Shown here piece by piece: positions 2,497-63,044 of a stretch of DNA of 64,000 bases; position 1 is the first letter of the stretch; every line of letters starts with the position of its first letter. Made by a program: the position numbers and the translations under genes. The notes under the pieces are model-generated. The model saw only the letters and a list, made by a program, of their open reading frames with translations. It had not been told where the DNA came from and searched no databases. The DNA is taken from NCBI GenBank assembly GCA_947499125.1, contig CANMMP010000002.1, forward strand, positions 248,001 to 312,000. Direction: 5' to 3'. Origin of the DNA: an uncultured Pontibacter sp. (GTDB taxonomy: Bacteria > Bacteroidota > Bacteroidia > Cytophagales > Hymenobacteraceae).

Positions 2497-4518
2497 TTAT
2501 TCGTGGGTCGTATGTTCTGTTGGCAGCCAGGTATCATCTAAATTGTTGTGGCCCATGCCAGTATTGGTTTCTTCTATACGGAATACGTGAACCGGCATTT
2601 CGTGAGGCCTTAACTCTACAAAATTCCATTCGTTCTGCCAGGTGTATTTATGGTCGGTGAGCAGGTCGTGCACCAGGTACTGTTCGCCTTCTTTAAGCCG
2701 CAGCTCGTTAAGTGGCACCTGCACCCATCCCGATTGTGTGTGATATGGGTCCATGTTGGCAACCACCAGGATCTTGTTTTTGCGGGTGCTGTCCCATTTG
2801 GCAAAGCAGAGCAGCTGGGGGTTGTCGGCCTCACCGAAGGCTATGTTCCAGGTGGTCTGCAGGGCAGGGTTTACCTTCCGGATCTTGTTAATGAGCGTAA
2901 TAACCTCAGATGTTTTGGTGCGTTTGCCCCAGTCCCAGTGCTTTACTTCATATTTTTCAGAGTCTACATACTCTTCCTTGCCCGGGTACGGCGTGGAAAT
3001 ACTGAACTCATATACTGGCCCGTACAGGCCATAGTTTGATGAAAGTGTAGCCGCCAGCACTACCCGCATGATGTGTGCCGGTTCGCCGCCGTGTTGTAAT
3101 ACTTCGGGTAAGATATCAGGTGTGTTGGGCCAGAAGTTAGGGCGGTAATATTCGCGCATATCGGTCTGGGTGAGTTCGGTAAGGTACTCCCGTATTTCCT
3201 GCGGTGTATTGCGCCAGGTAAAGTATGTATAGGATTGCGTGAAACCGATCTTACCTAAACGCTCCATTACGCGCGGCCTTGTAAATGCTTCAGCCAGGAA
3301 AATGACCTGCGGATGCTGCGCCCTTACTTCGCGTATCATCCATTCCCAGAAATGAAAGGTTTTGGTATGCGGGTTATCAACCCTGAAAATGTGTACTCCC
3401 TGGTCGATCCAGTGTAAAACTATACTTTTGAGTTCTATCCAAAGGTTCTCCCAGTCTTCTGTTTCGAAGTTTACGGGCAGTACGTCCTGGTATTTTTTAG
3501 GGGGATTTTCTGCATATTGTACAGTGCCATCGGGTCGCCATTTAAACCACTGCGGATGCTCTTTTACATAAGGGTGATCCGGGGAACACTGGATGGCAAA
3601 ATCGAGGGCAACTTCAATCCCTTGCTCGCGTGCCTCGTGCACAAACCCACGGAAATCGTCCAAGGTGCCCAACTCGGGAAGTATAGCTTTGTGACCGCCT
3701 TCTTCTGCACCTATAGCCCATGGTGATCCTGGTTCTCCCGGTTCTGAGGTTGTTGCGTTGTTCTTGCCTTTCCGGAATGCGCGGCCAATTGGGTGTATAG
3801 GAGGCAGGTAGATCGTATCGAAACCCATTTCGGCGATGCGTGGCAGCAGCCGGATACAATCTTTAAAAGTGCCATGGTGGTTAGCTTCCTGCGATGCCGA
3901 CCTCGGGAAAAACTCATACCAGGTGCTGAAAAGCGCTTTCTGGCGTTCAACATCAACCTGTAAAATCTTATCGTAAGTGGTTACATTCTGGCGGTCGCAG
4001 CAGGCATGCATCAGGTCCGATACATCCTGGCTGGTAGCCAACTCTACACCACTCGCCCCGGAAATATTGCCGCGCAGCTGCTCTGCCCATTTGCGTAGGC
4101 GTTTTTGCTGGCCTGGTTTGGCAGTAGCAGCGGCATCTTCCATCAACTGGGCGCCTATCTGTAGTTCAACTGTAATATCCTGGTTGGCTTCAAACTTTTT
4201 GCGGAGACCCTTCTGCCAGGTATAAAAATGATCAACCCAGCCCTGAAGCGTATATTCCCACATGCCCATGGCATCTGGTATAATGGTAGCTTGCCAGTGG
4301 TCGTTTCCCAGGAACTTCATCGGTACTTCGTTCCACTTTTTTTTGCGGCCATGGCGGTAAAGCAGAATCGCTTTTACTTCATCGTGGCCGTCTCCAAACA
4401 CATCGGCTGTAACGGTCAGTTCTTCGCCTACCACTCGTTTTACCGGGTATTGTCCGCAGTTTATCTGGGGTTTTACATGCTCAATAATTACTCTGTTCTT
4501 TCCTTGCAATTCTTCCAT
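2497..4518 (-). CDS. glgE: Alpha-1,4-glucan:maltose-1-phosphate maltosyltransferase
   Basis: 673 residues, the usual length for GlgE. It extends alpha-1,4-glucan by transferring maltosyl units from maltose-1-phosphate in the cytoplasm. Residues 1-120 form the N-terminal beta-sandwich domain (DUF3416 type). The GH13_3 barrel follows, with nucleophile Asp381 in FRVDNPHTK, acid/base Glu410 in FLAEAFTRP and the third acidic residue Asp468 in NTPDIL; the spacing matches characterised GlgE enzymes. It is the first gene of a leftward operon with treS-maltokinase, which supplies its donor. A glycogen branching enzyme normally accompanies this pair; none is in the window, and it may lie further left. 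Identification is very secure. Confidence 0.96.
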   Translation of the reverse strand: MEELQGKNRVIIEHVKPQINCGQYPVKRVVGEELTVTADVFGDGHDEVKAILLYRHGRKKKWNEVPMKFLGNDHWQATIIPDAMGMWEYTLQGWVDHFYTWQKGLRKKFEANQDITVELQIGAQLMEDAAATAKPGQQKRLRKWAEQLRGNISGASGVELATSQDVSDLMHACCDRQNVTTYDKILQVDVERQKALFSTWYEFFPRSASQEANHHGTFKDCIRLLPRIAEMGFDTIYLPPIHPIGRAFRKGKNNATTSEPGEPGSPWAIGAEEGGHKAILPELGTLDDFRGFVHEAREQGIEVALDFAIQCSPDHPYVKEHPQWFKWRPDGTVQYAENPPKKYQDVLPVNFETEDWENLWIELKSIVLHWIDQGVHIFRVDNPHTKTFHFWEWMIREVRAQHPQVIFLAEAFTRPRVMERLGKIGFTQSYTYFTWRNTPQEIREYLTELTQTDMREYYRPNFWPNTPDILPEVLQHGGEPAHIMRVVLAATLSSNYGLYGPVYEFSISTPYPGKEEYVDSEKYEVKHWDWGKRTKTSEVITLINKIRKVNPALQTTWNIAFGEADNPQLLCFAKWDSTRKNKILVVANMDPYHTQSGWVQVPLNELRLKEGEQYLVHDLLTDHKYTWQNEWNFVELRPHEMPVHVFRIEETNTGMGHNNLDDTWLPTEHTTHE

Positions 4519-4724
4519 GTATGCGCTTTCAGTTTGTTCCAGTTGCTGTAGTTGTAGTCCTGTGCCGGTAGCAACAGGTAAGTTTTATCATACGGAGAAC
4601 TGCTGTTTCCGATACCTAACCAGTACATATACTGCTACTTTGCTGCCATCCTTTCACTAAAAAGCCATAACCTAAACCCTGCAGCTACAGTTTATCCTGC
4701 AGAGCGAACTATGAAAACAAACGT
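4519..4724. promoter_or_regulatory. Divergent intergenic region between glgE and treZ
   Basis: These 206 bases separate the two opposing alpha-glucan operons, so both promoters should lie here. I found no exact TAnnTTTG element. The closest is a shortened TACTTTG near 4634. No clear operator palindrome was seen. The promoter role is inferred from gene orientation alone. Confidence 0.4.
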
Positions 4725-6530
4725 ATGGGAATAAGCAGAGAGATCGGGGCAGCGTATGACCCGGACAAAGGAACGGTATTTACTGTGTGGGCGCCGGAAG
4801 CAGAGCAGGTAGAGGTAACTGTTACAGGAAAAAAAGAGCAAACTATACCGATGCAGCGTGAGGCTTTTGGTTACTGGACTGCCCTGGCCGAAGAAGCAGG
4901 CCCCGGCGACCGCTATACTTATAAACTCAACAACGAAAGATCATTACCCGACCCGGCCTCGCAACACCAACCGGATGGCGTGCACGAGGCCTCCGCTATT
5001 GTGGACCATCACCAGAACCGGAACGACGACAACTGGCAAAACCTTCCACTGCAGGAATACATTATTTATGAACTCCACACCGGTACTTTTTCTGAAGATG
5101 GTACTTTTGAAGGCATCATCAATAAACTGCCCGAACTGAAAGAGTTAGGTATAACGGCTATTGAGCTGATGCCCGTAGCGCAGTTTGCCGGAGAGCGCAA
5201 CTGGGGCTACGATGGCGTTTACCCTTTTGCTGTGCAGCATAGTTACGGCGGGCCGGAAGGTTTAAAAAAACTGGTGGATGCCTGCCACAAAACAGGTATA
5301 GCCGTGGTGCTGGATGTAGTGTATAACCATTTGGGGCCGGAAGGAAACTATACCCAGGAGTTTGCCCCATATTTTACTGACAAGTATAACACGCCCTGGG
5401 GAGCAGCTTTAAATTTTGATGATGCCCACTCAGACCATGTGCGTAATTTCTTTATACAAAACGCCCTGATGTGGTTCCGTGATTACTATATTGATGCCCT
5501 GCGGCTTGATGCGGTACATGCCATACTTGACACCGGTGCGAAACACTTTTTGCAGGAACTGCAGGAGCATGTGAGCCACCTGGAAGAGCAGCTTGACCGC
5601 AGGTTTTATCTGATAGCAGAAAGCGACCTGAATGATGTGCGCATTATAAACCCGCAGGAGCAGGGTGGCTATGGCTTGGCAGCGCAATGGAGCGATGATT
5701 ACCATCATGCGATACATGCGTTGGTAACCGGCGAACAGGAAGGTTATTACCACGATTTCGGGCAGGCTGAGCAACTATTAAAGGTGCTGGAACATGGCTT
5801 TGTATATAATGGCTTATACTCGGAGCACCGTAAACGCACCTTTGGAAGCGATGCCAGAGATAATCCTTTTCAGCAGTTTGTTGTCTGTTCTCAGAACCAC
5901 GATCAGGTTGGCAACCGCATGCTGGGCGAGCGCTTAACCACACTGGTGTCGTTTGAGATGCTGAAAGTTGTAGCAGCCGTTGTGGTGCTAGGACCTTATG
6001 TGCCTATGTTGTTTATGGGTGAAGAGTATGGGGAGAAGAATCCATTTTTATACTTTGTGAGCCACACCGATAAGGACCTGCTTGAGGCAGTACTCAAAGG
6101 CCGCAAAGAAGAATTCAAGGCATTCAGTTGGCAGGGCGAAGCACCCGATCCGCAATCCGAAGAAACCTTCCGTAAGTCAGTACTACAGCATAGCTATACT
6201 TCTGATGATCAGGCACGGCAGTTACGAGAGTACTATAAAACGCTTATCCAGATCCGGAAGCAAAAGCTTATTCCTGTAAACCCAACCCGCCAGAACTTTA
6301 CCGCTGAACTATCCGAAAACAAACAGGTGCTGCAACTAAGCTATGCGGATAAACTACAGGTATGGCTGAATTTCAGCAACGAGCCTCAAACTATAACTAC
6401 AACTTCAAACGGAAATCTACTACTAAACTCAGCGGATAAACAGTGGGCTGGAACACAGGATAGCGACAAAGCCTATACTTCCGGCACGGCAACACTGCAA
6501 CCTGAATCTGTATTAGTATTAGAGGTATAA
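4725..6530 (+). CDS. treZ: Malto-oligosyltrehalose trehalohydrolase
   Basis: 601 residues. Cleaves trehalose from the end of maltooligosyltrehalose made by TreY. An N-terminal CBM48-like domain (about 1-95, WAPEAEQVEV) precedes the GH13 barrel. Catalytic residues are Asp262 in LRLDAVH, Glu299 in LIAESDL and Asp393 in the family signature QNHDQVGNR. That signature and the neighbouring treY separate it from glycogen branching enzyme, which has a similar architecture. It is the first gene of a tight rightward operon (2-base gap to the next gene) and is divergent from glgE-treS. Confidence 0.94.
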   Translation: MGISREIGAAYDPDKGTVFTVWAPEAEQVEVTVTGKKEQTIPMQREAFGYWTALAEEAGPGDRYTYKLNNERSLPDPASQHQPDGVHEASAIVDHHQNRNDDNWQNLPLQEYIIYELHTGTFSEDGTFEGIINKLPELKELGITAIELMPVAQFAGERNWGYDGVYPFAVQHSYGGPEGLKKLVDACHKTGIAVVLDVVYNHLGPEGNYTQEFAPYFTDKYNTPWGAALNFDDAHSDHVRNFFIQNALMWFRDYYIDALRLDAVHAILDTGAKHFLQELQEHVSHLEEQLDRRFYLIAESDLNDVRIINPQEQGGYGLAAQWSDDYHHAIHALVTGEQEGYYHDFGQAEQLLKVLEHGFVYNGLYSEHRKRTFGSDARDNPFQQFVVCSQNHDQVGNRMLGERLTTLVSFEMLKVVAAVVVLGPYVPMLFMGEEYGEKNPFLYFVSHTDKDLLEAVLKGRKEEFKAFSWQGEAPDPQSEETFRKSVLQHSYTSDDQARQLREYYKTLIQIRKQKLIPVNPTRQNFTAELSENKQVLQLSYADKLQVWLNFSNEPQTITTTSNGNLLLNSADKQWAGTQDSDKAYTSGTATLQPESVLVLEV

Positions 6531-6532
6531 TT

Positions 6533-8932
6533 ATGGAACATTACATTTGCATACACGGCCATTTTTACCAGCCTCCGCGCGAAAACCCCTGGCTGAACGA
6601 GGTGGAAATGCAGGAGTCGGCGAGGCCCTACCACGACTGGAACGAGCGCATTACCGACGAATGCTATGCCCGCAATGCCGCCTCGCGTATGCTCGATACG
6701 GACGGAAGTATAGTGGACATCCTGAACAATTATGCCTGGATGAGCTTTAACTTTGGGCCAACGTTACTGGAGTGGATGGAGAAAAAGGAACCGGAAACGT
6801 ACCAGGCTATACTTGCTGCTGACAAGGAAAGCCAGGAGCGTTTTTCTGGGCACGGCTCGGCGCTGGCACAGGTATATAACCACATGATCATGCCGCTGGC
6901 CAACGAGCGCGACAAGCATACACAGGTTATCTGGGGAATTTACGATTTTAAAAGAAGGTTTGGCCGCGACCCCGAAGGTATGTGGCTGGGAGAAACTGCC
7001 GCTGATACGGCTACGCTGGAAGTGCTGGCTGACCACAATATAAAATTCACGATACTATCGCCATATCAGGCAAAAAGCTACCGCAAAATTGGCGAAACAA
7101 CATGGCACAATGCTACGAACGCCCAGGTAAACCCAAACAGGCCTTATGTATGCAACCTGCCATCGGGTAAAAGTATAGTACTGTTCTTTTACAATGCGCC
7201 GGTGTCGCAGGGGGTTGCTTTTGAAGGATTGCTGCACAACGGTGAAAAGTTTGCTAACCGGCTTGTTGGCTCCCTTGACCATAATAATCCCGAACCGCAA
7301 CTACTGCACATTGCCACCGACGGCGAAACCTATGGCCATCACCACCACTTTGGCGAAATGGCCCTATCCTATACCTTGCATCACATTTATGAATTAGAGC
7401 AGGTGCACCTTACTATTTACGGAGAGTATTTAGAGAAACATCCGCCCGAATATGAAGCCCAAATAATAGAGAACACTTCCTGGAGTTGTGCGCACGGCGT
7501 GGAGCGCTGGAAGAGCGATTGCGGCTGCAACACAGGTGGCCAACCCACCTGGAACCAGAAATGGCGGAAACCATTGCGCGAGGCATTCGACTGGCTGCGT
7601 GACGAACTGGAACAACTATACAACAGCCGCATGCAGGACTTTGCAAACGACCCGTGGCAGGTACGCAACAACTATATCCGGGTAATATCAGACAGGTCGG
7701 AGGAAAATGTGCGGAATTTTATAGTTGAGCACAGCAAGCGGGAGTTGAGTGAAGAAGAACAACGCACTTTCCTGATGCTGCTGGAAGTACAGTACCATGC
7801 CATGCTGATGTATACGAGTTGCGGATGGTTTTTTGATGAAGTGACCGGCATCGAAACCATGCAGGATATTTTATACGCAGCCCGTGCTTTACAGCTCGCT
7901 GAAACTATAAGCGGGCATAGTTACGAAGGCACTTTTATGCAGCTGCTGGAGCAAGCCGAAAGCAATAAAAAAGAGTATAAAAATGCCGCAGAAGCTTACC
8001 AGGCAATTGCCAAAACTACCATGCTGGACCTGCTGCGGGTAGGCGCTCATTATGCGGTGTCGTCTTTGTTTTCGGAAGATGGTACAACTGAGGACCTGTA
8101 TAGTTACCAGGTAACATCGGAGAGGCACGAGCTGATAGAAGCGGGCAGGCAAAAACTGGCAGTAGGCAGGGCGCACATCCGGTCGGTGGTAACCTGGCAG
8201 GAGGCAACTATAACCTATGGCGTACTGCACATCGGCGACCATCAGTTATTAGGCGGTGTGCGCGATTTCCGGGATGAAAATGCATTTGAAGCTCTTTATA
8301 CAGAGCTGTCGGAAGCCTTTGGCAAAGGAAGCATCAGTGAAGTTATCATGTTGCTCGACAAACATTTTGAGTCGCATAGTTACTCGTTCTGGCACCTTTT
8401 CCGGGACGATCAGCATAAAATAATGAGCGAAGTGCTGGGGCAAACCATGCACAACATTGAAGGAGACTTTGAGCAGGTATACAATAACAATTACCCGCTG
8501 ATGGCTGCTATGCGCACCTTGAATATGAAGTTGCCGCGCCCACTCCTGATGGTGGTTGAGTATATGGTGAACAAAAAGCTGATGCTGGAACTTCAGGCCG
8601 ATAAATCAAACCCTGAGGTGCTTACCCGGTACTGCGAAGAAGCTGAGCGCATGAAACTTAACCTGGAAACAGAACCGCTGGAATTTGCAGCCGAAAAACG
8701 AACAGAACAGCTGATGCAGCAACTCGAAAAACAACCCGATAACCTGCAACTGATGGACGACCTGAACAGGCTGCTGGAAGTGCTGCAAAAGACTACCATC
8801 AAACCCGACTACTGGCATGCACAGAACATCGCTTTCCGGATGAAGCAACAACTGTATGCTCAGTATGCCCACGACGCAGAATGGAGCCAGCGCTTTACAG
8901 CACTTTACGAAAACCTGAACCTGAAAGTATAA
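6533..8932 (+). CDS. GH57-like DUF3536 family protein of unknown substrate
   Basis: 799 residues, cytoplasmic by absence of a signal peptide. The N-terminus carries the GH57 motif HGHFYQPP (8-15). Glu154 in GMWLGET matches the GH57 nucleophile and Asp263 in IATDGETYGHH the GH57 acid/base position, so it looks catalytically competent. A Cys-rich patch (SDCGCNTGG, around residue 325) and a long helical C-terminal half of about 400 residues distinguish it from GH57 amylases and branching enzymes. It lies between treZ and treY with gaps of 2 and 4 bases, so it should act on the same alpha-glucan or maltooligosaccharide pool. Family known as DUF3536; activity not known to me. It could replace GH13 branching enzyme or debranching activity. 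Confidence 0.85.
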   Translation: MEHYICIHGHFYQPPRENPWLNEVEMQESARPYHDWNERITDECYARNAASRMLDTDGSIVDILNNYAWMSFNFGPTLLEWMEKKEPETYQAILAADKESQERFSGHGSALAQVYNHMIMPLANERDKHTQVIWGIYDFKRRFGRDPEGMWLGETAADTATLEVLADHNIKFTILSPYQAKSYRKIGETTWHNATNAQVNPNRPYVCNLPSGKSIVLFFYNAPVSQGVAFEGLLHNGEKFANRLVGSLDHNNPEPQLLHIATDGETYGHHHHFGEMALSYTLHHIYELEQVHLTIYGEYLEKHPPEYEAQIIENTSWSCAHGVERWKSDCGCNTGGQPTWNQKWRKPLREAFDWLRDELEQLYNSRMQDFANDPWQVRNNYIRVISDRSEENVRNFIVEHSKRELSEEEQRTFLMLLEVQYHAMLMYTSCGWFFDEVTGIETMQDILYAARALQLAETISGHSYEGTFMQLLEQAESNKKEYKNAAEAYQAIAKTTMLDLLRVGAHYAVSSLFSEDGTTEDLYSYQVTSERHELIEAGRQKLAVGRAHIRSVVTWQEATITYGVLHIGDHQLLGGVRDFRDENAFEALYTELSEAFGKGSISEVIMLLDKHFESHSYSFWHLFRDDQHKIMSEVLGQTMHNIEGDFEQVYNNNYPLMAAMRTLNMKLPRPLLMVVEYMVNKKLMLELQADKSNPEVLTRYCEEAERMKLNLETEPLEFAAEKRTEQLMQQLEKQPDNLQLMDDLNRLLEVLQKTTIKPDYWHAQNIAFRMKQQLYAQYAHDAEWSQRFTALYENLNLKV

Positions 8933-8936
8933 CTAT

Positions 8937-11663
8937 ATGACTTATATTCCGCTGGCAACTTACCGCTTGCAATTGTCTCCTAAACTTACTTTAAGCGAGA
9001 TAAAAGAGCTTATTCCTTACCTGGATGATCTGGGCATCAGTACCATATATGCAGCACCTTTTTTTACGGCCGCGCCAGGCAGCGAACACGGGTACGATGT
9101 GGTAGATCCACAGCAGCTTAATCCAGAAATAGGCTCCCAGAAAGAGCTGGAAGACATTGTAAAGGATTTACAGAAGTATAAAATGGGCTGGCTGCAGGAT
9201 ATAGTTCCGAACCACATGGCTTATCACCCAACCAATGTATGGTTGATGGATGTGCTGGAGAAAGGGCAGAAATCAGAGTTCTATACTTTCTTCGATATCG
9301 ACCTGAAGCACCCTGATTTTGATGGGAAAGTGATGGTGCCTTTTTTAGGCGAGCCCCTGGAAAGCGTACTCGAGCAACAGCAGCTAAAACTAACTTTTGA
9401 GGAGTCCGGATTTCAGATTGCCTACTTTGATAACAACTACCCGGCAAGTATAAACACCTATAGTTTCCTGCTCGAAAAGTTGGTGGACCAGGTAGACGGC
9501 ACAGACAAAAAAATACTGGAAGAAAAGCTTACACAACTGCAGCAAACTATAGCTTCCGATACACTTGATATTGCCCGCTGGCAGCAAACAAAACAAACCC
9601 TTTTTGAAAGTATAGCCCAGCACAAAAGTATAAAAGCGCACTTAGAGAAATTGCGGCAAACTATAAACGAAGACAGCACCCAACTAAAGGAACTGTTAGA
9701 TCTGCAGTTCTTTAAACTGAGCTTCTGGCAGGATACACAGGAGAAAATTAATTACCGCCGCTTTTTTACCGTCAACGACCTGATATGCCTGCGGATAGAG
9801 CAACCGGAAGTCTTCAGGAAATATCATCAGTATATAAACCAGTTGTGCAAACAGGGCTTGGTGCAGGGACTGCGCGTTGACCACGTTGATGGCCTTTTTG
9901 ACCCGGACGGTTATTTACAGCATCTTCGTGAAATGGTTGGTGAAGATGTATACCTGGTTGTAGAGAAGATTCTTGAAGGAGAGGAGCAATTACCTTCTTA
10001 CTGGCCTATACAGGGTAACAGCGGGTACGACTTTCTGGCGTGGGTTTGCAATGTATTTACCGACCCGGATGGAGAAGAAAAGCTGACACAGGTATACCAG
10101 CGTGTAGTGCCTAATGCCACAACCAACTACGAAAGCCTGGTTTTTGAGAAGAAACTGTTTATACTGGAGCACCGCATGCAGGGCGAACTACAAAACCTGT
10201 TACGGCTGTTGCACAACCTCGATATTGTACCAAACCCCGACGATAAGAACTGGCCCCATGCACTGGCTATGCTGCTGGCGTCGTTCCCGGTTTACAGGGT
10301 CTATGGCAACCGTTTTCCGCTACCCGACGAGGCAAACGAAGTAATTGACAAGGCCTTTGAACTTGCCCTCGAAAAAGCGCCCGAGCAAAAAGAACAGCTG
10401 GAATTGCTCCGCAAAGTATATCAACCGGACACTAACGAACCTGAGGCGCAGCTAAAAGACAAATTATACTTTGTGATGCGAAGCCAACAGTTTACGGGTC
10501 CGCTGGCAGCCAAAGGCGTGGAAGATACAACTTTCTACAACTATAACCGGCTGATATCGCTGAACGAAGTAGGCAACAGTCCCGAAATTTTTAACCTGAG
10601 CCCGGCGCGTTTTCATAAGCTGATGCAGCTAAGTTTGCAGCAGTTTCCGCACTCCATAAACGCCACAGCCACCCACGATACTAAGCGCGGCGAAGATGCC
10701 CGCATCCGGATAAATGTGCTGAGCGAACTGCCCGAGAAATGGGAACAAAATGTAGTGCACTGGATGGAGCTGGCAAAACAGCATTGTAAAACCGAAATGC
10801 CCCGCCGCAACGACTTGTACTTTATTTTCCAGGCGATGCTGGGTGTAATGCCTTTCGATGAAACGATAGATGATGAACTGATCGAGCGTTTCCAGGAATA
10901 TATTACCAAAGCCCTGCGCGAAACAAAGGCCCGCACCAACTGGACCAACCCGAACGAAGCCTACGAAAATGCAACCAAAGAATTGACTGCCAACCTGCTC
11001 CGAAGCGACGATTTTAAGCAAGCCTTCCTGCCATTTTTCCGGGAGCTGGCGCATTATGGTTGGCTTTATAGTTTAAGCCAGTTAATGTTAAAACTTACCT
11101 GCCCGGGCGTGCCAGATGTATACCAGGGTTGCGAACTGTGGGATCTGAGCCTGGTAGACCCCGACAACCGCCGGAAAGTAGATTATAGTTTGCGCCAAAC
11201 ATACCTGCATGAGCTGCAGCAACAAGACGAAAAGGATACTATAAAGCTACAGCAGCAGATACTACAGGACCCGGCATCAGGCAAAGTAAAATTATACCTG
11301 CTCTGGAAAATTTTGAATGCCCGCAAAGCCAACCGTGAACTTTTCGATTTCGGGAGTTATGTGCCATTGCAGCTGGCTGGCAAGTATAAAAACCATGTTC
11401 TGGCCTTTGGCCGAAAGTATAAAAACCAATGGTGTGTAGTAGTTGTGCCGCGCCTGCTCGTGAAGTTAACTTCTGAAAAACAGTTGCCTCTTGGCCCCCA
11501 TGTTTGGCAGGACACTGAAATTATACTTCCGGATGGTGCGCCAAAACAGTGGCAGCATATACTTACAAACCAACCTGTAACAGCCGGCCAGGGCTTAGGT
11601 GTAGCAACTATTTTGCAGCATTTCCCTGTGGCTTTACTAATCTCTGATAACTATGATGTTTGA
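8937..11663 (+). CDS. treY: Malto-oligosyltrehalose synthase
   Basis: 908 residues, longer than many TreY proteins because of helical insertions. Converts the reducing-end alpha-1,4 bond of maltooligosaccharides to the alpha,alpha-1,1 bond of trehalose. N-terminal signature IPLATYRLQL and EHGYDVVDP (50-58). Nucleophile Asp315 in GLRVDHVDGL, acid/base Glu343 in VVEKILEGEE, and the third acid in ATHDTKRGEDAR. Works directly before TreZ in the TreYZ route. The gene overlaps malQ by 11 bases, so translation is probably coupled. Confidence 0.95.
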   Translation: MTYIPLATYRLQLSPKLTLSEIKELIPYLDDLGISTIYAAPFFTAAPGSEHGYDVVDPQQLNPEIGSQKELEDIVKDLQKYKMGWLQDIVPNHMAYHPTNVWLMDVLEKGQKSEFYTFFDIDLKHPDFDGKVMVPFLGEPLESVLEQQQLKLTFEESGFQIAYFDNNYPASINTYSFLLEKLVDQVDGTDKKILEEKLTQLQQTIASDTLDIARWQQTKQTLFESIAQHKSIKAHLEKLRQTINEDSTQLKELLDLQFFKLSFWQDTQEKINYRRFFTVNDLICLRIEQPEVFRKYHQYINQLCKQGLVQGLRVDHVDGLFDPDGYLQHLREMVGEDVYLVVEKILEGEEQLPSYWPIQGNSGYDFLAWVCNVFTDPDGEEKLTQVYQRVVPNATTNYESLVFEKKLFILEHRMQGELQNLLRLLHNLDIVPNPDDKNWPHALAMLLASFPVYRVYGNRFPLPDEANEVIDKAFELALEKAPEQKEQLELLRKVYQPDTNEPEAQLKDKLYFVMRSQQFTGPLAAKGVEDTTFYNYNRLISLNEVGNSPEIFNLSPARFHKLMQLSLQQFPHSINATATHDTKRGEDARIRINVLSELPEKWEQNVVHWMELAKQHCKTEMPRRNDLYFIFQAMLGVMPFDETIDDELIERFQEYITKALRETKARTNWTNPNEAYENATKELTANLLRSDDFKQAFLPFFRELAHYGWLYSLSQLMLKLTCPGVPDVYQGCELWDLSLVDPDNRRKVDYSLRQTYLHELQQQDEKDTIKLQQQILQDPASGKVKLYLLWKILNARKANRELFDFGSYVPLQLAGKYKNHVLAFGRKYKNQWCVVVVPRLLVKLTSEKQLPLGPHVWQDTEIILPDGAPKQWQHILTNQPVTAGQGLGVATILQHFPVALLISDNYDV

Positions 11664-13167
11664 TAAAAGAAGCAGCGGTGTATTGCTGCACATCACCTCC
11701 TTACCATCTAAGTACGGCATCGGCGACCTGGGCCCGGAGGCGTATAATTTTGCAGATAAACTGGTAGCAGCCGGGCAACGCTTCTGGCAGATATTGCCCT
11801 TAAACCCGACCGACCTGGGCTATGGCAACTCGCCATACAGCAGCCATTCCGCATTCGCCGGTAACCCTTTGCTTATTAGCCCGGAGTTATTGGTGCAGGA
11901 TGGCCTGTTAGAGAAAAAGGATCTGAAAACCGATAGCAATTTCGCTCCCGATAAAGTAAACTATAATGCTGTTGTGCAGCATCGGCTTAAAATCTGGCAA
12001 CAAGTATGGCTGAACTATAAAAACAGCTGTCCCCCAACTATAAAACAGGAGTTCAAGAACTTTAAAAACCAGAACCAGAATTGGCTACCAGAGTTTGCCT
12101 TGTTTGTAGCCTTAAAAGAGCATTTTGAGAAAGTTGGTTGGGTAAGCTGGCCCGATGAGCTAAAGCACAGGCAACCGGAGGCCCTCGAAGAATATACCGA
12201 GAAGCTTAAAGACACGATAGAGAAGGAAAAACTACTTCAGTTCCTGTTTTACCGCCAGTGGCAGGCCTTGAAGGATTATTGTAACCAGCGTAAGCTATAC
12301 TTTATAGGCGACATGCCTTTTTATGTGAGCCACGATAGTGCGGATGTGTGGGCCAACCAATTATACTTTAAGCTGGATAAAAAAGGCATGCCAACAGCCG
12401 TATCAGGAGTGCCACCCGATTATTTTAGCGAAACCGGGCAATTGTGGGGCACACCGGTATTTAACTGGAGTGAGTTGCAGAAAAACCATTTCGATTGGTG
12501 GCTGCGCCGCGTAAGCCATAACCTCCGGCTGTTCGACCTGCTACGCTTAGATCATTTCAGAGCATTTTCAGCTTATTGGGAGGTGCCTGCAGGCGATAAA
12601 ACAGCTATAAACGGTACCTGGCAACCAACCCCCGGAGCTAAGTTCTTAAAACTGGTGCAGGATACTCATCCCGAAATGCCAATTATTGCCGAAGACTTAG
12701 GTGAGATAGACGACCCGGTGCGTGAGCTTCAAAAGCAATTTAGTTTACCAGGCATGCTGGTGCTGCTATTTGCATTTGGTGAAGATCTGCCACACTCTAT
12801 CTACGCGCCACATAATCATTACCAACGTGCTATAGTTTACACCGGTACCCACGACAACAGCACCGTGCGCGGCTGGTACGAAAAAGACGCATCAGCAGGG
12901 GATAAAAAGCGACTGGAGCAATACAGCAACTATAAATTGACAAAGGAGAATGCCCATGAAGCTATGGCGATATTGGCTCTTGGTTCGGTTGCGAAGCTGG
13001 CTGTTTTGCCGGTGCAGGATATAATCGGCTTAGGCTCCAAAGCGACCATGAACAAACCGTCCACAGCCAGTGGCAACTGGGAGTGGCGCCTGCTCAAAAA
13101 CCAGTTTACAGCAGCTAATGTTAAATGGCTGAAGCAAAAGACGGAGATATACGGAAGAGGGCAGTAG
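11653..13167 (+). CDS. malQ: 4-alpha-glucanotransferase (amylomaltase)
   Basis: 504 residues, the standard length for bacterial GH77. Disproportionates maltooligosaccharides, making chains of a length suited to TreY and recycling maltose. N-terminal RSSGVLLHITSLPS; nucleophile Asp300 in LLRLDHFRAF, acid/base Glu347 in IIAEDLG, and Asp401 in GTHDNST. The start is ATGATG at 11653, overlapping the treY stop. Last gene of the treZ operon; a repeat-rich gap follows. Confidence 0.96.
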   Translation: MMFDKRSSGVLLHITSLPSKYGIGDLGPEAYNFADKLVAAGQRFWQILPLNPTDLGYGNSPYSSHSAFAGNPLLISPELLVQDGLLEKKDLKTDSNFAPDKVNYNAVVQHRLKIWQQVWLNYKNSCPPTIKQEFKNFKNQNQNWLPEFALFVALKEHFEKVGWVSWPDELKHRQPEALEEYTEKLKDTIEKEKLLQFLFYRQWQALKDYCNQRKLYFIGDMPFYVSHDSADVWANQLYFKLDKKGMPTAVSGVPPDYFSETGQLWGTPVFNWSELQKNHFDWWLRRVSHNLRLFDLLRLDHFRAFSAYWEVPAGDKTAINGTWQPTPGAKFLKLVQDTHPEMPIIAEDLGEIDDPVRELQKQFSLPGMLVLLFAFGEDLPHSIYAPHNHYQRAIVYTGTHDNSTVRGWYEKDASAGDKKRLEQYSNYKLTKENAHEAMAILALGSVAKLAVLPVQDIIGLGSKATMNKPSTASGNWEWRLLKNQFTAANVKWLKQKTEIYGRGQ

Positions 13168-43915: not shown

Positions 43916-44305
43916 GAGTAAAAATTTTGTTCTTGTTTCAGCATCTGCTGATGGTGTAAATGTAAGGGCAGCAAGGCAACTTACATAACCTTTTCTGTAT
44001 TAATTAACCTGAGCGCCAGCCTATTGTTTCGGCTCTTTCTGTACAGGCAAATCAATCGTTTTATAACGCCTTTTAAAGGTGGTTTTGTTCCTGATCTATA
44101 CTTAGTGGAGGTGATGCGTTCATTGCCTGAAAACATGAGAACTATAGATGGAATGAAAGGATTTAACAGCTGGCTATAGTTGAAATTAAAGTATGGCAAC
44201 TATAAGTAAACGGCTGGAAGTGTATGAGAATGAGGTATAAAACAGAACCGCCCTATATCGCATACGTTTATAAAGAGATGTAATACCCCTAAATGAAAAC
44301 AAACG
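43916..44305. other. Intergenic region before the disordered protein genes
   Basis: 390 bases between divergent genes. One 72-codon open frame on the reverse strand (43981-44199) lacks any recognisable domain, signal or good context and is not called. The promoters of both flanking genes should be here; no exact TAnnTTTG was seen. No repeat or RNA gene recognised. Confidence 0.5.
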
Positions 44306-44620
44306 ATGGCTGATAACAAAAGAGACGAAAACGAGCGGCCCGATAAAGGCTATAATAGAGGAGCCCCGAACACTGCTAACAAAGGAAAGCAGAATAGGTC
44401 GGTTGGTCGTGATGGCGGCTACGAGATGGGAGCAGGACGCAGTATGCGTGGTAACGATTATTACCGCAATGCCAGCGACGATGTGAGTGGCTACGATCGC
44501 TCTTTTAAAGATACTCCGCCAGGCTATGGTTCTACAAAGTATAACGAACGCGACCTGGACCGTGAACGCAGTACTTACAGTAACCGCGACAAACGCGACG
44601 AAAACCGCAAGAACGATTAA
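44306..44620 (+). CDS. Small, highly hydrophilic, probably disordered protein
   Basis: 104 residues with almost no aliphatic residues, no Cys and no Trp, dominated by Asn, Asp, Arg, Gly, Lys and Tyr (MADNKRDENERPDKGYNRGA; ending KRDENRKND). Composition fits hydrophilins and other disordered stress proteins. No signal peptide. The next gene, 100 bases away on the same strand, encodes a longer protein of the same style. Codon use looks normal for the window, so it is probably a real gene. Function unknown; a role in desiccation or osmotic protection is a guess from composition. Confidence 0.7.
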   Translation: MADNKRDENERPDKGYNRGAPNTANKGKQNRSVGRDGGYEMGAGRSMRGNDYYRNASDDVSGYDRSFKDTPPGYGSTKYNERDLDRERSTYSNRDKRDENRKND

Positions 44621-44720
44621 CTATTTACCCGATAGCAAATAGCCCGTTGAATAAATTGAGTGCGAGCTATCAGGAGTAAGCGATAAGTATACGTATAAGG
44701 TATAACCTAATTTTAAAGCT

Positions 44721-45446
44721 ATGAACAGAAACGAAAAAGATAAATACTACCACAGCGGACTTGGCTCTGAGAACAGACGAAACTGGGACCGCTCGACAAG
44801 AGATGGCGATTATGGCCGTGATTATGAAAACAGGTTCCGAACGGACGAGGACCGCCAGCACGAAGTACGACGCAGACATTTTCCGGAGTCGGGTGATCTT
44901 AACTCAAACGATACACGGAACTATGGAGTAGGCTCAGATTATTACGGCCGTACCAATACCAATTACCGCCGTGGATACAATACTCCGGATTATGTGGCGC
45001 GCATGGAGGAGGACCGTGAGAAACTTCGTAGCCTCAGCCCTAAAAACCAGGAGCAACGTAACCTGGGTGGGTACAGTGGTTCTGCCTTTGGTGGGTCAAA
45101 CTATAGTTCTCACGGCGATTTTAGTGGGGCTGATGAGTATGGAGCGATGAGCGGCGACCAGGGCAACGTTGATGATTACCCTTCCATGTCAGGGTATGGT
45201 GGTGGACGTCCGTCGCAGAGCGCTGGCAGTAGAAACTATAACGAGCGTTACGGCAACTCTGGATCTGGAATGGACAGAGACAACAGGACCGGCAACTATA
45301 GTTCGGGTAACCAGCGAAACACAAACTATGGCTCAACAGAAAACAGGTATAGCAGCAGGGACCGTAACAAAAGCGACCGCGATAACCGGAGCGCAGACCG
45401 TGGCGGCTACCGGAACTATGACCCCAACAACCGTTGGAACGATTAA
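44721..45446 (+). CDS. Tyr/Arg/Gly/Asn-rich low-complexity protein
   Basis: 241 residues, no Cys and no signal peptide. N-terminal third is mixed charge (MNRNEKDKYYHSGLGSENRR); a short ordered-looking patch YVARMEEDREKLRSLSPKNQ lies near residue 95; the rest repeats short Tyr/Gly/Asn/Arg/Ser/Asp elements (NYNERYGNSGSG, NYSSGNQRNTNYG, YRNYDPNNRWND). Tyrosine and arginine are evenly spaced, the pattern seen in condensate-forming disordered proteins. It shares style and the final ND with the upstream 104-residue protein. Followed by its own terminator. Function unknown. Confidence 0.7.
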   Translation: MNRNEKDKYYHSGLGSENRRNWDRSTRDGDYGRDYENRFRTDEDRQHEVRRRHFPESGDLNSNDTRNYGVGSDYYGRTNTNYRRGYNTPDYVARMEEDREKLRSLSPKNQEQRNLGGYSGSAFGGSNYSSHGDFSGADEYGAMSGDQGNVDDYPSMSGYGGGRPSQSAGSRNYNERYGNSGSGMDRDNRTGNYSSGNQRNTNYGSTENRYSSRDRNKSDRDNRSADRGGYRNYDPNNRWND

Positions 45447-45453
45447 TTAAATG

Positions 45454-45478
45454 AAGGCCGGCTTAAACAACCGGCCTT
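45454..45478 (+). terminator. Terminator after the low-complexity gene
   Basis: AAGGCCGG and CCGGCCTT, 8-bp perfect stem with a 9-base loop, then a T-rich stretch. Confidence 0.85.
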
Positions 45479-45540
45479 TATATTTTGTAGCTTATAGAGC
45501 AAATATTTCATCATCCCTGAAAGTATAAACTATAGTTGCC

Positions 45541-46444: not shown

Positions 46445-46783
46445 TCAGGCTCTGATCAGCTTTTGGAGCAGTTCATTTATTTCTTCTTCCGTATTTACAA
46501 GACCGCAATCCTGTATCACTCCTTTTTTATAGGTTACTATAAACGGGGCTTTGCTAAATTTAACCTCTTTACTCGATACCGGATTCTCGCGGGCATCCAT
46601 TCTCAGAAAAAGAACCTCCGCATACAGTGGGCTTTGAGCTAATTCCTCGAACGACGGTGCAAGTTGCTGGCAAATAGCACAATCCTTGTCAATAAATTTA
46701 ACTATTACATTGTCTCTTGTAAAAAGCAGCTGCCTGAGGTCGTGGTCAGTTGCATTATTAATAGTGTTTTGAGTTAAGCGCAT
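46445..46783 (-). CDS. Thioredoxin-fold protein with CAIC motif
   Basis: 112 residues, cytoplasmic. Thioredoxin fold with Cys35 and Cys38 in DKDCAICQQ in place of the usual WCGPC, and the cis-proline region FSKAPFIVTYKKG. The changed active site suggests a different redox potential or specific partner. Convergent with pirin, separated by only 40 bases. Confidence 0.85.
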   Translation of the reverse strand: MRLTQNTINNATDHDLRQLLFTRDNVIVKFIDKDCAICQQLAPSFEELAQSPLYAEVLFLRMDARENPVSSKEVKFSKAPFIVTYKKGVIQDCGLVNTEEEINELLQKLIRA

Positions 46784-46948
46784 ACTTCCTTAACGAAAAT
46801 TACCCACCTAAGTTAACTCAAAAAGATCCCTAACAGCAAAATCGATCACTTCCGGAAATATAGCTTTGATCCTTAAAAACAATGTGTTCACCAATTTAGA
46901 TCGATAGAGCAAGTTCTTTATAAATTTTAGAACTAAATTTATAATTAA

Positions 46949-61100: not shown

Positions 61101-63044
61101 TCCGTCGAGTGCAAGGTCGAGGTTCGGGTCCTCGGAACGTGCCTGTACATCGTACACGTTTCTATTAATGTCGGCATCAAGTACAATGTTGCGGTAGTTA
61201 TAGTTGTTGTACTCAAACTTCGAGAGGTTTGCCTGTACATCGGCTACCATCGTTTCGGGCGTAAGGCCCTGCCCTTTAGCGGTTATAGTTCCGGCTACGG
61301 TGCCCAGGCCAAGGCTATCGGTAAAGAGTTCATCCAGGGCAAGACCTGCGGTTTTTATGGTTGCGTTAAAGGTTTCGTTATCGCCCATGTCCACGTCGGC
61401 TGTCAAGTTGCCCATCGAGCTGTTTATAGTTGCCTGTGCATCCATGTTTGTCAGGGTGCCTTCTACAGTGCCGGCTATACTTATTCTTTCCGGTATGCGA
61501 ATGTTTGGCGGAATGGTGCCTGCAGGAGCAAAGGCAAGTATAGTAGAGCGGGTTGTTTGCAGTTGGTTTACATCCAGGTCCAGGTACAGGTTGTCGGGGT
61601 TGGTAGCGTTGCGGATATTGCCTGTTACATTAACTATAGTTCCGTTTAAGCCCGATGCCCGCAGTTGTCGCACGATCATGTTATCTACAGTTCCTTCTAC
61701 ATCTCCACTGATCTGTAATGTTGAGTTGGTTATACTTTTGAATGATGGATTGTTGCGCAGTTCCGGCATAAAGTATAGCACATCCTGCATCGCAATACGG
61801 CTGTCAACTATATTCAGGTCAAGCTGTGTAGCTCCGGGGTTTTCGGCCAATGCATCCAACGAACTATAGCGTATCGCCAGGTCGCGTTGTATGTGGCTGT
61901 TGCCGGTTTTCAGGTCGAGGTTAGTGAGTTGTGTCTGAACAGAATCAAACAGTATATCGGCCTGGAAGTTCTCTACCCTGAAGCCGCTTTTCTCTTTTAG
62001 CTGTAGCTGCTTCAGATCTGCTTTTGTGCGGTTTAAACTATAGCTCAGGTCATTTGCCTGCAACTTCACATCTGTAAAGTATAAGTGGTTGTAATCCATG
62101 CCGCGCGGCTGTGCAGGCATATTAAAGTTATCGAACTTAATGTTTACCCCGGAAATATCTGTTTCCCCTAAGGTCACTACCCAATCCACCGGCTGGCCCT
62201 GCGCTTTCTCCACCGATTCGTCCAGGTCGCGCACTATCTTAGCCGGGTTCACAGCCAGCGAATCAGATGGTTTATACTTTTCCTGGGCATAAACTATAGC
62301 AGTATTGTGCAGCTCCAGGTTGCTGAGGTCTACGCGGGCATTAGGCAGGTCTATGTTGTCAGATGTTACATTGGCTCTCCCCAGGTCTACTTCAATGCGC
62401 TGTTCGGCCACACGGTTCTCATAGCGCAGGCGTATAGACTCCAGGTCTGCTTTGTTTAAGCCAAACTCAAAGGCAATAGGTTCCGGCTCTGATGGCGGTG
62501 GCAGTTTGGTTTGTATAAAGTTTATCCAGGTGTTTTTAAGCTCGACGTTATCAACCAGGTATTTCTGTTCTTCCAGGTTCAGCTCGTCCATGGTTGTGTT
62601 TAGCTGACCGATATGCGTTTCTATCAGGTTGCCGCCTGCTTCATCCCGGAAGCTTACTCTTACATTATCTAAATTAATTACTCCCAGGTTTATGGCCATC
62701 GCGGTGGTGTCAGCAGGAGTAGTAGTTGCGGTGGTGTCGGTGGCGAAAGCCTCCATTATATGATCGAAGTTGGAACTGCTGTCGGGCCGGATGTGCAGGT
62801 TTAACCGCGCTTTTTCAAGGTCTATTTTACTGATGTCTATTGTACCGCCGATCAATCCAAAAATGTCGAGGTCAACACCCAGGCGCTGGCTGTACCAAAG
62901 GGTGTCCTGTTGCTGGTCTTCCAGGTATACGTCTTTCAGTACCAGTGCATTGCGCCAGTCAGTAGTAAATCCCCCTATCTCTACTTTTGTGCCAAACATG
63001 CCTTCCAGGTAATCAGCACCTTGTTTGGCAGTATAGTTCTGCAC
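58101..63044 (-). CDS. tamB: Translocation/assembly module protein TamB
   Basis: 1647 residues from GTG 63044. Long repetitive beta-taco groove (AsmA/TamB-like; VEGTLTNMDAQATINSS, IKGNFSGASPATLSGTM) and a C-terminal DUF490 domain (LSGRYTIKDGKYSMDFYDL; MNKQVFALLVLNRFLAPD). It spans the periplasm and works with TamL, whose start overlaps its stop. Odd point: the frame stays open upstream to a stop at 63168-63170 and encodes a basic stretch plus a perfect membrane anchor (VILGLLLFIVALIIIIVVAL), but contains no ATG, GTG or TTG. The true protein probably begins near 63155 with a non-standard codon, or the sequence has an error there. Confidence 0.92.
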   Translation of the reverse strand: MQNYTAKQGADYLEGMFGTKVEIGGFTTDWRNALVLKDVYLEDQQQDTLWYSQRLGVDLDIFGLIGGTIDISKIDLEKARLNLHIRPDSSSNFDHIMEAFATDTTATTTPADTTAMAINLGVINLDNVRVSFRDEAGGNLIETHIGQLNTTMDELNLEEQKYLVDNVELKNTWINFIQTKLPPPSEPEPIAFEFGLNKADLESIRLRYENRVAEQRIEVDLGRANVTSDNIDLPNARVDLSNLELHNTAIVYAQEKYKPSDSLAVNPAKIVRDLDESVEKAQGQPVDWVVTLGETDISGVNIKFDNFNMPAQPRGMDYNHLYFTDVKLQANDLSYSLNRTKADLKQLQLKEKSGFRVENFQADILFDSVQTQLTNLDLKTGNSHIQRDLAIRYSSLDALAENPGATQLDLNIVDSRIAMQDVLYFMPELRNNPSFKSITNSTLQISGDVEGTVDNMIVRQLRASGLNGTIVNVTGNIRNATNPDNLYLDLDVNQLQTTRSTILAFAPAGTIPPNIRIPERISIAGTVEGTLTNMDAQATINSSMGNLTADVDMGDNETFNATIKTAGLALDELFTDSLGLGTVAGTITAKGQGLTPETMVADVQANLSKFEYNNYNYRNIVLDADINRNVYDVQARSEDPNLDLALDGTFNLRDTTNANYNFTLDLNQANLQALNLYPEPLSIQGKIKGNFSGASPATLSGTMDAQQLVVQHNNVNYPVDSLQLSLQQQKGNTEIQLSSDVLAADMQFGNTLETLPTALLKHFSNYFDLQPDPPYPANLSLEDFAFEIDLKKPAILTSFVPGLEQLQQSAPLTGTYDGETQVFEMDGGFSRIKYMDYTLNGLALQVRGNRNELGYSADLNQFASPSLNVNNVGLTGAARDNELALQLAVAKDSANAEFMIGGVMNSLGRGYRFVFNPDELVINGDKWTVPQDNYLQFDTNFIYANNINLQHNNMQLALNSRGPVGPAAPLEATFQNLEIGYILRSFQEPDSLMTGTINGTATLKEIMTGAPTFTSDITVTDFSYAGNPVGDLALVASTASANRYSIDARLTDNGNQLLIDGFVETQPNATLLNLTANVENLNINSFQGFSAGLVDDLDGSANGTLRITGTVDDPNIAGTLNFNEAEFTVTQLGSLYKLQNEQLVFDESGIRFPDFTLTDTLGNTLEVNGSILTQNYTDFQFDLTADTEKFLALNSTVQENELYYGTLYIDANATIKGNLEVPVIVSDVSVLPGSDFTIVIPAEQVGAAERDGIVEFVNLNDSLTAILNGMAGADSTASMGFVGVDIQTRISVTDETPITIVLDPITGDNLKVRGTADPLFIGMTPAGQINMSGRYTIKDGKYSMDFYDLVSRELDITEGSYIAWTGDPLLANMQVTAIYTVETAPMELVASQIGGTLEPALQNQVPFQVYVDVEGEMLTPEIGFDIQIPENRQGQVPREVMTSLGNLRTDVSEMNKQVFALLVLNRFLAPDPFTSSGGGFASTARNSLSQVMTDQLNNLTQRYAGGLGLELGVDSYEDYSSGSAQGRTDLNVALRQKFLDDRLTVRVGTDIGLEGGQQEQNNMSGFGGDISVEYSITEDGRLRVQAFQRNQFEDFLEGDVRATGAGVIYQREYNNFSDLFRNLERRHERERERKLEDAKKIEEDIKK

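Follow-up and report, generated by a model that had tools for sequence, protein, structure and literature searches.

Several described systems lie close to the gene pair studied here. LEA proteins, typically rich in Lys, Glu and Ala, are disordered, hydrophilic and presumed to be protective. In low-complexity domains of the FUS/hnRNP type, Tyr and Arg stickers are set in spacers of Gly, Ser and Asn, and evenly placed Tyr/Arg stickers with spacers are a pattern linked to reversible condensation. Bacterial disordered stress proteins have usually been described singly. GsiB of B. subtilis is a hydrophilin-like general stress protein named alongside hydrophilins of E. coli and yeast, and the numeric thresholds for hydrophilins are a GRAVY below −1 and a Gly content above 6%. 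In an excerpt of PMC4190154 the group is defined by much Gly together with a high average hydrophilicity. For regulation, the relevant system is the alphaproteobacterial EcfG general stress response, whose promoter consensus is given in excerpts of PMC7083833 as GGAAC-N16-CGTT, in which AAC at −35 hardly varies and CGTT is the commonest −10; the same consensus appears in the available text of PMC8103513, and the accessible part of PMC3892343 states that EcfG is exclusive to the Alphaproteobacteria.

Here we analysed a stretch of 64,000 nucleotides from an uncultured Pontibacter sp. (contig CANMMP010000002.1), the whole of which we call the window, and in it two adjacent genes, A and B. Pontibacter belongs to the Bacteroidota and is known chiefly through isolates of soil, desert and marine origin. 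Like hydrophilins, the encoded proteins are very hydrophilic, Gly-rich, nearly Cys-free and disordered, and all 77 disordered ORFs that we collected pass both numeric thresholds; they differ in belonging to a Tyr/Arg-rich set with almost no Lys (R/K 14 over 101 sequences; A of the window is an exception) and in having no relative in Pfam or NCBIfam. With LEA proteins they share disorder, hydrophilicity and presumed protection, whereas no LEA profile matched, A and B are rich in Arg, Tyr, Asn and Gly, and their few predicted helices are short and of low confidence. The likeness to FUS/hnRNP domains lies in the Tyr/Arg stickers, the Gly/Ser/Asn spacers and, in the collected set, evenly spaced aromatics; no folded domain is predicted and RG is not enriched here, and the resemblance is at most one of working principle, with no homology claimed. 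The Pontibacter motif, AAC-N16/17-CGTT, resembles the EcfG consensus, but the base before AAC is variable (A 0.43, G 0.32, T 0.19) and the known output is mainly disordered proteins.

Results

A pair of disordered proteins and a shortened copy of A

A and B lie head to tail with a gap of 100 bp (Table 1). Both are rich in Arg, Asn, Gly, Asp, Tyr and Ser. A contains 14.4% Arg, 11.5% Gly, 7.7% Tyr and 7.7% Lys (GRAVY −2.07), more lysine than the rest of its family, and B contains 14.1% Arg, 13.3% Gly, 9.1% Tyr and 2.1% Lys (GRAVY −1.91); in each, V+I+L+M amount to 5.8% and Cys is absent. AlphaFold2 models built with homologous alignments contained no confident structure and no predicted folded domain for either protein. 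The mean pLDDT was 46.8 for A (pTM 0.10, one low-confidence helix at residues 81-102) and 45.1 for B (pTM 0.13, two short low-confidence helices), as expected of disordered chains. The original prediction, made from the letters of the window, had called the pair disordered, Cys-free and poor in aliphatic residues, and all of this is borne out.

Table 1. Positions of the features discussed; plain numbers refer to the window, and L-numbers to loci in related genomes or elsewhere in the same genome.
Feature	Position or loci	Strand	Details
Putative ECF-sigma-type promoter of A	44245-44270	+	−35 GAAC 44245-44248; 16-bp spacer; −10 CGTTTA 44265-44270
ORF A	44306-44620	+	104 aa; disordered; shortened internally; belongs to a Pontibacter family
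Conserved C-terminal block of A, GYDRSF...GYGSTxYNxRDxDRERS	44489-44569	+	residues 62-88; from alignment
ORF B	44721-45446	+	241 aa; disordered; member of a Pontibacter family
Near-invariant core of B	45069-45206	+	about 46 residues (117-162); 19 of 22 invariant alignment columns
Terminator-like stem-loop, predicted to close the A-B unit	45451-45481	+	11-bp stem, U-rich tail; −17.3 kcal/mol; z −4.55; reported by the hairpin scan on the opposite strand only
Thioredoxin-fold gene, candidate regulon member	46445-46783	−	Pfam PF00085, E 5.7e-11
TAAC-N16-CGTT before the thioredoxin gene	46792-46815	−	motif scan
Iterated word AACTATAG, examples	45099-45108, 45294-45303, 45528-45537, 61632-61641		
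Anti-sigma-factor antagonist genes	L094:9012-9368, L099:8649-9026, L101:8563-8934, L105:9092-9430		
Family F3	L150, L156, L185-L187, L205		sorted by eye
Family F4	L151, L153, L179-L181, L191		sorted by eye
Family F5	L157, L160 = L200, L170, L171		B-like tail; sorted by eye
Family F6	L163, L194, L235		sorted by eye

For the smaller protein a hydrophilin-like composition had also been noted, and this is supported; its small size calls for a correction. A measures 170-263 aa in 26 aligned relatives and 214-232 aa in the closest ones (L003-L008). Most of L003-L008 carry a central block (its consensus includes GDMSGGTRYGEGGSTYGGGSxYGHSxYG) that is missing, about 110 aa in all, from the copy in the window. 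This copy is therefore an internally shortened A; it keeps the blocks SMRGNDYY and GYDRSF...GYGST...DRERS. This shortened copy may be a loss-of-function remnant.

A single chain at L173 holds an A-like block together with a B-like core, which suggests that A and B are of common descent; the protein at L095 carries the A block. The products of the two genes (L173:1569-2732 and L095:6516-7859) are long, rich in Gly, Ser and Tyr, and carry a helix-like segment in their N-terminal part, RGFFDRIGDTISNAWDRV and RGFLGRVGETISNAWNRV, respectively. A link of this family to the SWFGD-type proteins was considered for the helix-like RGFFDRIGDTISNAWDRV and rejected: NCBIfam gave no match, and a literature search on the word returned unrelated papers only.

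A and B are conserved genes of Pontibacter

When 150 genomes of the family, among them that of the window (the own genome), were searched with single sequences, A was found in 30, all of the same genus, and B in 30, of which 29 were of the same genus. The B match in another genus (L030, E 0.006) was rejected as an antisense artefact, since it overlaps a 403-aa ORF on the opposite strand, presumably an NADH dehydrogenase subunit, and since the profile search gave no match outside the genus. That search, with a profile of 26 B sequences, matched 35 of 204 family genomes, all same-genus, a few of them by partial matches that may be other families of the disordered set; 15 more same-genus genomes had no match. 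Across the order, a profile of 27 A sequences matched 15 of 390 genomes, all from a single one of the 129 genera. A scan of named records returned 17 loci, all of them titled Pontibacter.

No relative of B was found among viral contigs, plasmids or PDB sequences, and a single-sequence search of the own genome found no paralogue of A or B at E 10. Neither protein matched a Pfam family at E 10, none of the 27 A-family members did so at E 0.1, and the 26 B relatives gave one weak, unrelated NCBIfam match. The earlier failure to recognise a family thus agrees with both databases; the pair nevertheless defines families of its own in Pontibacter. Neither this regulon nor these proteins are described in the titles and abstract openings returned by our literature search, and such genes are not named in the available part of an RNA-seq study of P. 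korlensis after gamma irradiation (PMC4460873).

Several observations establish A and B as genuine conserved genes under purifying selection. First, dN/dS was 0.09-0.25 in all ten comparisons (five pairs of relatives, for A and B each; the genes of the window lie outside these pairs). Second, the alignment of 26 B sequences has 22 invariant columns, most of them in a core with the consensus GYSGSAFGGSNYSAHGDFGGSxxYGSMSGxGGNxDDYVSSSGYGGG. Third, a disordered ORF lies upstream of B on the same strand, within 700 bp, at 29 of 30 B loci; at the exception, L027, those 700 bp contain no ORF of at least 90 aa. The original prediction was to fall if the frame were not conserved in relatives; homologues recur at these dN/dS values, and it stands on this point.

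An ECF-type promoter motif precedes the A genes

An alignment of upstream regions from 11 species brought out AAC and CGTT, separated by 16-17 bp, some 60 bp ahead of the A start codon. The classical Bacteroidota promoter has the pattern TTG ... TAnnTTTG, and the version of it that we used found none upstream of A and B in the 11 species. We then counted AAC-N16/17-CGTT, the ECF-type combination of AAC, spacer and CGTT-like −10, before the 77 disordered ORFs, which come from loci collected by protein similarity and not by the motif and are related rather than independent. When alternative start codons were admitted and the genes sorted into classes anew, the motif lay 40-90 bp before a possible start in 44/44 A-type, 21/30 B-type and 2/3 unassigned genes, compared to 2/202 of the other genes of the window and the named loci. 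With called starts, the counts were 40/42, 22/31 and 3/4 against 1/202, and shuffled sequences gave 0.9/77.

The nine B genes without the motif are those of the window, L003-L008, L018 (with a match at −189) and L022; in the window and L003-L008, B probably relies on the promoter of A. The string GAAC-N16-CGTTTATAAA occurs once in the window and in none of 100 shuffles, and transcription of A would be expected to start at about 44275-44278. The consensus of 53 sites with N16 is RAAC(C/A)G-N11-CTNCGTTWAWA.

The motif leads to further disordered proteins

Genome-wide enrichment of the motif was tested and failed. Over 17 same-genus genomes AAC-N16-CGTTWAWA was not above its reversed control overall, and in the own genome AAC-N16-CGTTWA occurred 55 times against 93 for the reversed pattern, a longer pattern 15 times against 16 for its control, and an N14 control was commoner than N16 (36 vs 15). 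Either the regulon is small or the pattern is loose, and what is unusual is solely which genes follow the motif. At 10 of 30 tool-chosen Pontibacter loci with N16, a gene for a disordered protein begins 30-120 bp after the motif, compared to 0 of 30 with N14 (Fisher p 8e-4), and the proteins of these ten loci are neither A nor B. A further 20 stretches picked by eye are counted in none of these rates. Sorted by eye, the motif-led disordered proteins form at least four further families, F3-F6 (Table 1), plus the L173 type. Ten of them had no NCBIfam match at E 0.1, and nine of them gave a single Pfam match, far below its cut-off. Beyond the genus, 30 loci were fetched from 12 genomes of the same family, and one of them (L287) has such a gene, for an F5-like protein.

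Called ORFs contain 31 of the 55 sites in the own genome. The other 24 precede four genes for disordered proteins (A, L200, L205 and L235), the thioredoxin gene of the window (L220), an lmo0937-family gene (L239) and, in 18 cases, another gene or no called gene. A matrix trained on 52 sites, leaving out those of the own genome, placed A and L200 at ranks 1 and 2 of the 55, L235 at rank 6 and L205 at rank 13. Scores were low for the sites before the thioredoxin and lmo0937 genes, 6.8 and 2.8 (training minimum 11.3, median 24.9), and membership of these two genes in the regulon thus rests on recurrence across species. The motif precedes the thioredoxin gene in all five loci where a sequence pattern found that gene (the window and L090-L093), at a distance of −32, and lmo0937-family genes follow it in four genomes, the own included (NCBIfam was run on two of the four). 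Genes for the ribosome-hibernation factor HPF/YfiA follow the motif in three genomes (NCBIfam was run on one of the three). F3-F6, HPF and lmo0937 genes were found via the motif, and its presence there is no independent test. The shared motif suggests that A and B are tied to several disordered-protein families and a few likely stress genes, as parts of a dedicated stress programme.

Two further observations were made at motif loci. TetR-type regulator genes have AAC-N16-CGTT upstream in four genomes (L162, L188, L189 and L190), with the spacer almost unchanged in three. At L151:751-2948 and L153:149-2226, three disordered-protein genes adjoin; the F4 gene has the motif, and two further types are divergent and without it.

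Candidate sigma factors and surroundings of the pair

The own genome contains 12 matches to sigma region 4, of which nine pass the cut-off. The 250 bp upstream of these 12 genes hold no good motif (best PWM score 6.0; the ORF is ambiguous in L140), and the usual autoregulation clue of ECF genes therefore fails. The ECF gene at L134 has an exact match about 390 bp upstream. In 4 of the 17 named loci, a lone gene for a STAS-type anti-sigma-factor antagonist is convergent with B (Table 1); these genes were recognised by a sequence pattern, and that of L099 is TIGR00377 in NCBIfam.

A stress role had been argued from trehalose, polyphosphate and cyanophycinase genes in the same window, and this argument proved weak. 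A GlgE-type maltosyltransferase gene and a polyphosphate kinase gene lie about 40 and 25 kb from the pair. A peptidase S51 gene lies 1.8 kb away, and near the pair in several relatives too, but the motif scan of the window found no motif before it. A stress role is better supported by the shared ECF-type promoter and its other genes than by these neighbours.

The window holds a glycogen/maltose-1-phosphate cluster at 2497-13167 (GlgE-type enzyme, GH13 with CBM48, GH57/DUF3536 and 4-alpha-glucanotransferase); these are probably the genes taken for trehalose genes, and the cluster has no link to the pair. Separately, the word AACTATAG occurs 29 times in the 64 kb, compared to 2.6 expected from shuffles (largest 8), and the full palindrome AACTATAGTT four times, an iteration reminiscent of cyanobacterial HIP1.

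Discussion

The genes are real and conserved, their products are predicted to be disordered and they share a promoter motif. We consider it probable that the pair is one unit, of two genes, within a stress regulon that mainly yields disordered proteins of the sticker-and-spacer kind. In this species the pair would be a short transcription unit running from one putative ECF-sigma-type promoter (GAAC-N16-CGTTTA) to the hairpin terminator, and would belong to a Pontibacter stress regulon under a common promoter. The predicted output is several disordered families rich in Tyr, Arg, Asn, Gly and Asp and mostly poor in lysine, and beside them a thioredoxin, a factor for ribosome hibernation and a membrane protein of the lmo0937 family. 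Stress would release the sigma factor and a set of sticker-and-spacer proteins would be made, whose evenly spaced Tyr and Arg contacts could build dynamic assemblies or a protective matrix; these may shield proteins or ribosomes at low water, turgor or energy. We infer the reading of the motif by an ECF sigma factor, stress as its signal, and the physical role of the proteins.

The proposed assembly depends on the spacing of residues. Regular Tyr spacing had been claimed for the larger protein, and for B alone it is modest: the fraction of shuffles with aromatics at least as even is 0.04, and 0.23 for A of the window, which is not significant. Over the 77 ORFs, which are related and do not amount to 77 independent tests, the evenness of Tyr/Phe/Trp is strong (median percentile 0.013; 51/77 below 0.05 and none above 0.95). 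Over the 101 sequences YG pairs are enriched 2.1-fold, and YY and RR are depleted. A role in condensates would fit this residue grammar.

High Arg and evenly spaced Tyr make up the residue grammar of eukaryotic condensate proteins. The proteins could accordingly be stress-granule-like scaffolds for RNA or hibernating ribosomes instead of general hydrophilin-type shields, as their high Arg, the near absence of Lys over the set and their even Tyr might indicate; co-expression of a hibernation factor would serve such a role, and HPF/YfiA genes do carry the motif in three genomes, selected by that motif. We nonetheless regard scaffolding of this kind as unlikely. The RG ratio, observed to shuffled, is 0.94 over the 101 sequences, so that RGG-type RNA binding is not indicated, net charge is near zero (mean NCPR 0.002), which together do not describe RGG boxes, and none of the genes behind the 55 sites of the own genome was recognised as HPF.

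A different doubt concerns regulation. AAC-N16-CGTT might be the operator of an unrelated transcription factor, which would co-regulate the genes without an ECF sigma factor; AAC and GTT can be read as inverted half-sites, and the own ECF genes, as noted above, have no good motif within 250 bp. This we judge to be quite improbable. A palindrome with CGTT needs a G after AAC, and in the 53 sites that base is mostly C or A and never G. The element is thus asymmetric, which speaks for a promoter over the site of a dimeric operator-binding protein, as do the ECF-like spacer of 16-17 bp, the −10-like CTNCGTTWAWA and the usual position some 60 bp before the start of the gene.

Adhesive and structural proteins can likewise contain Tyr/Gly-rich repeats, and the products of A and B might be exported to the surface or matrix instead of staying in the cytoplasm. 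Export appears very improbable, since there is no hydrophobic stretch resembling a signal peptide: the highest 15-residue hydropathy is −0.69 in A and −0.19 in B, and it exceeds 1.0 in only one of 101 relatives. Even stickers and the lack of such an export signal lead us to favour protective assemblies inside the cell, made on demand under stress. Drift of low-complexity sequence or chance open frames that lack a function, to which the widely varying lengths and the missing residues of A in the window might point, are refuted for the families by dN/dS, the invariant columns of B and the promoter kept in all 44 A genes, and we give them practically no weight.

If A and B belong to a stress regulon of sticker-and-spacer proteins, a bolder version of this reading can be put forward, tentatively and with considerable doubt. 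Pontibacter, and perhaps a related genus in which one locus was found, may run an alternative-sigma stress programme whose chief output, a set of co-expressed Tyr/Arg-rich disordered proteins (A and B plus four or more other families, mostly without lysine), co-condenses with hibernating ribosomes into a cytoplasmic protective phase. Such a phase would be a counterpart of stress granules or of an anhydrobiosis proteome, under an EcfG-like promoter grammar outside the Alphaproteobacteria. The promoter signature joins several families of condensate-like composition that lie outside Pfam and NCBIfam, and it points to a candidate regulon in the Bacteroidota whose sigma factor could be identified. 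The gene set and its predicted transcription starts would offer an entry to asking whether mixtures of bacterial disordered proteins aid survival of drying, radiation and starvation.
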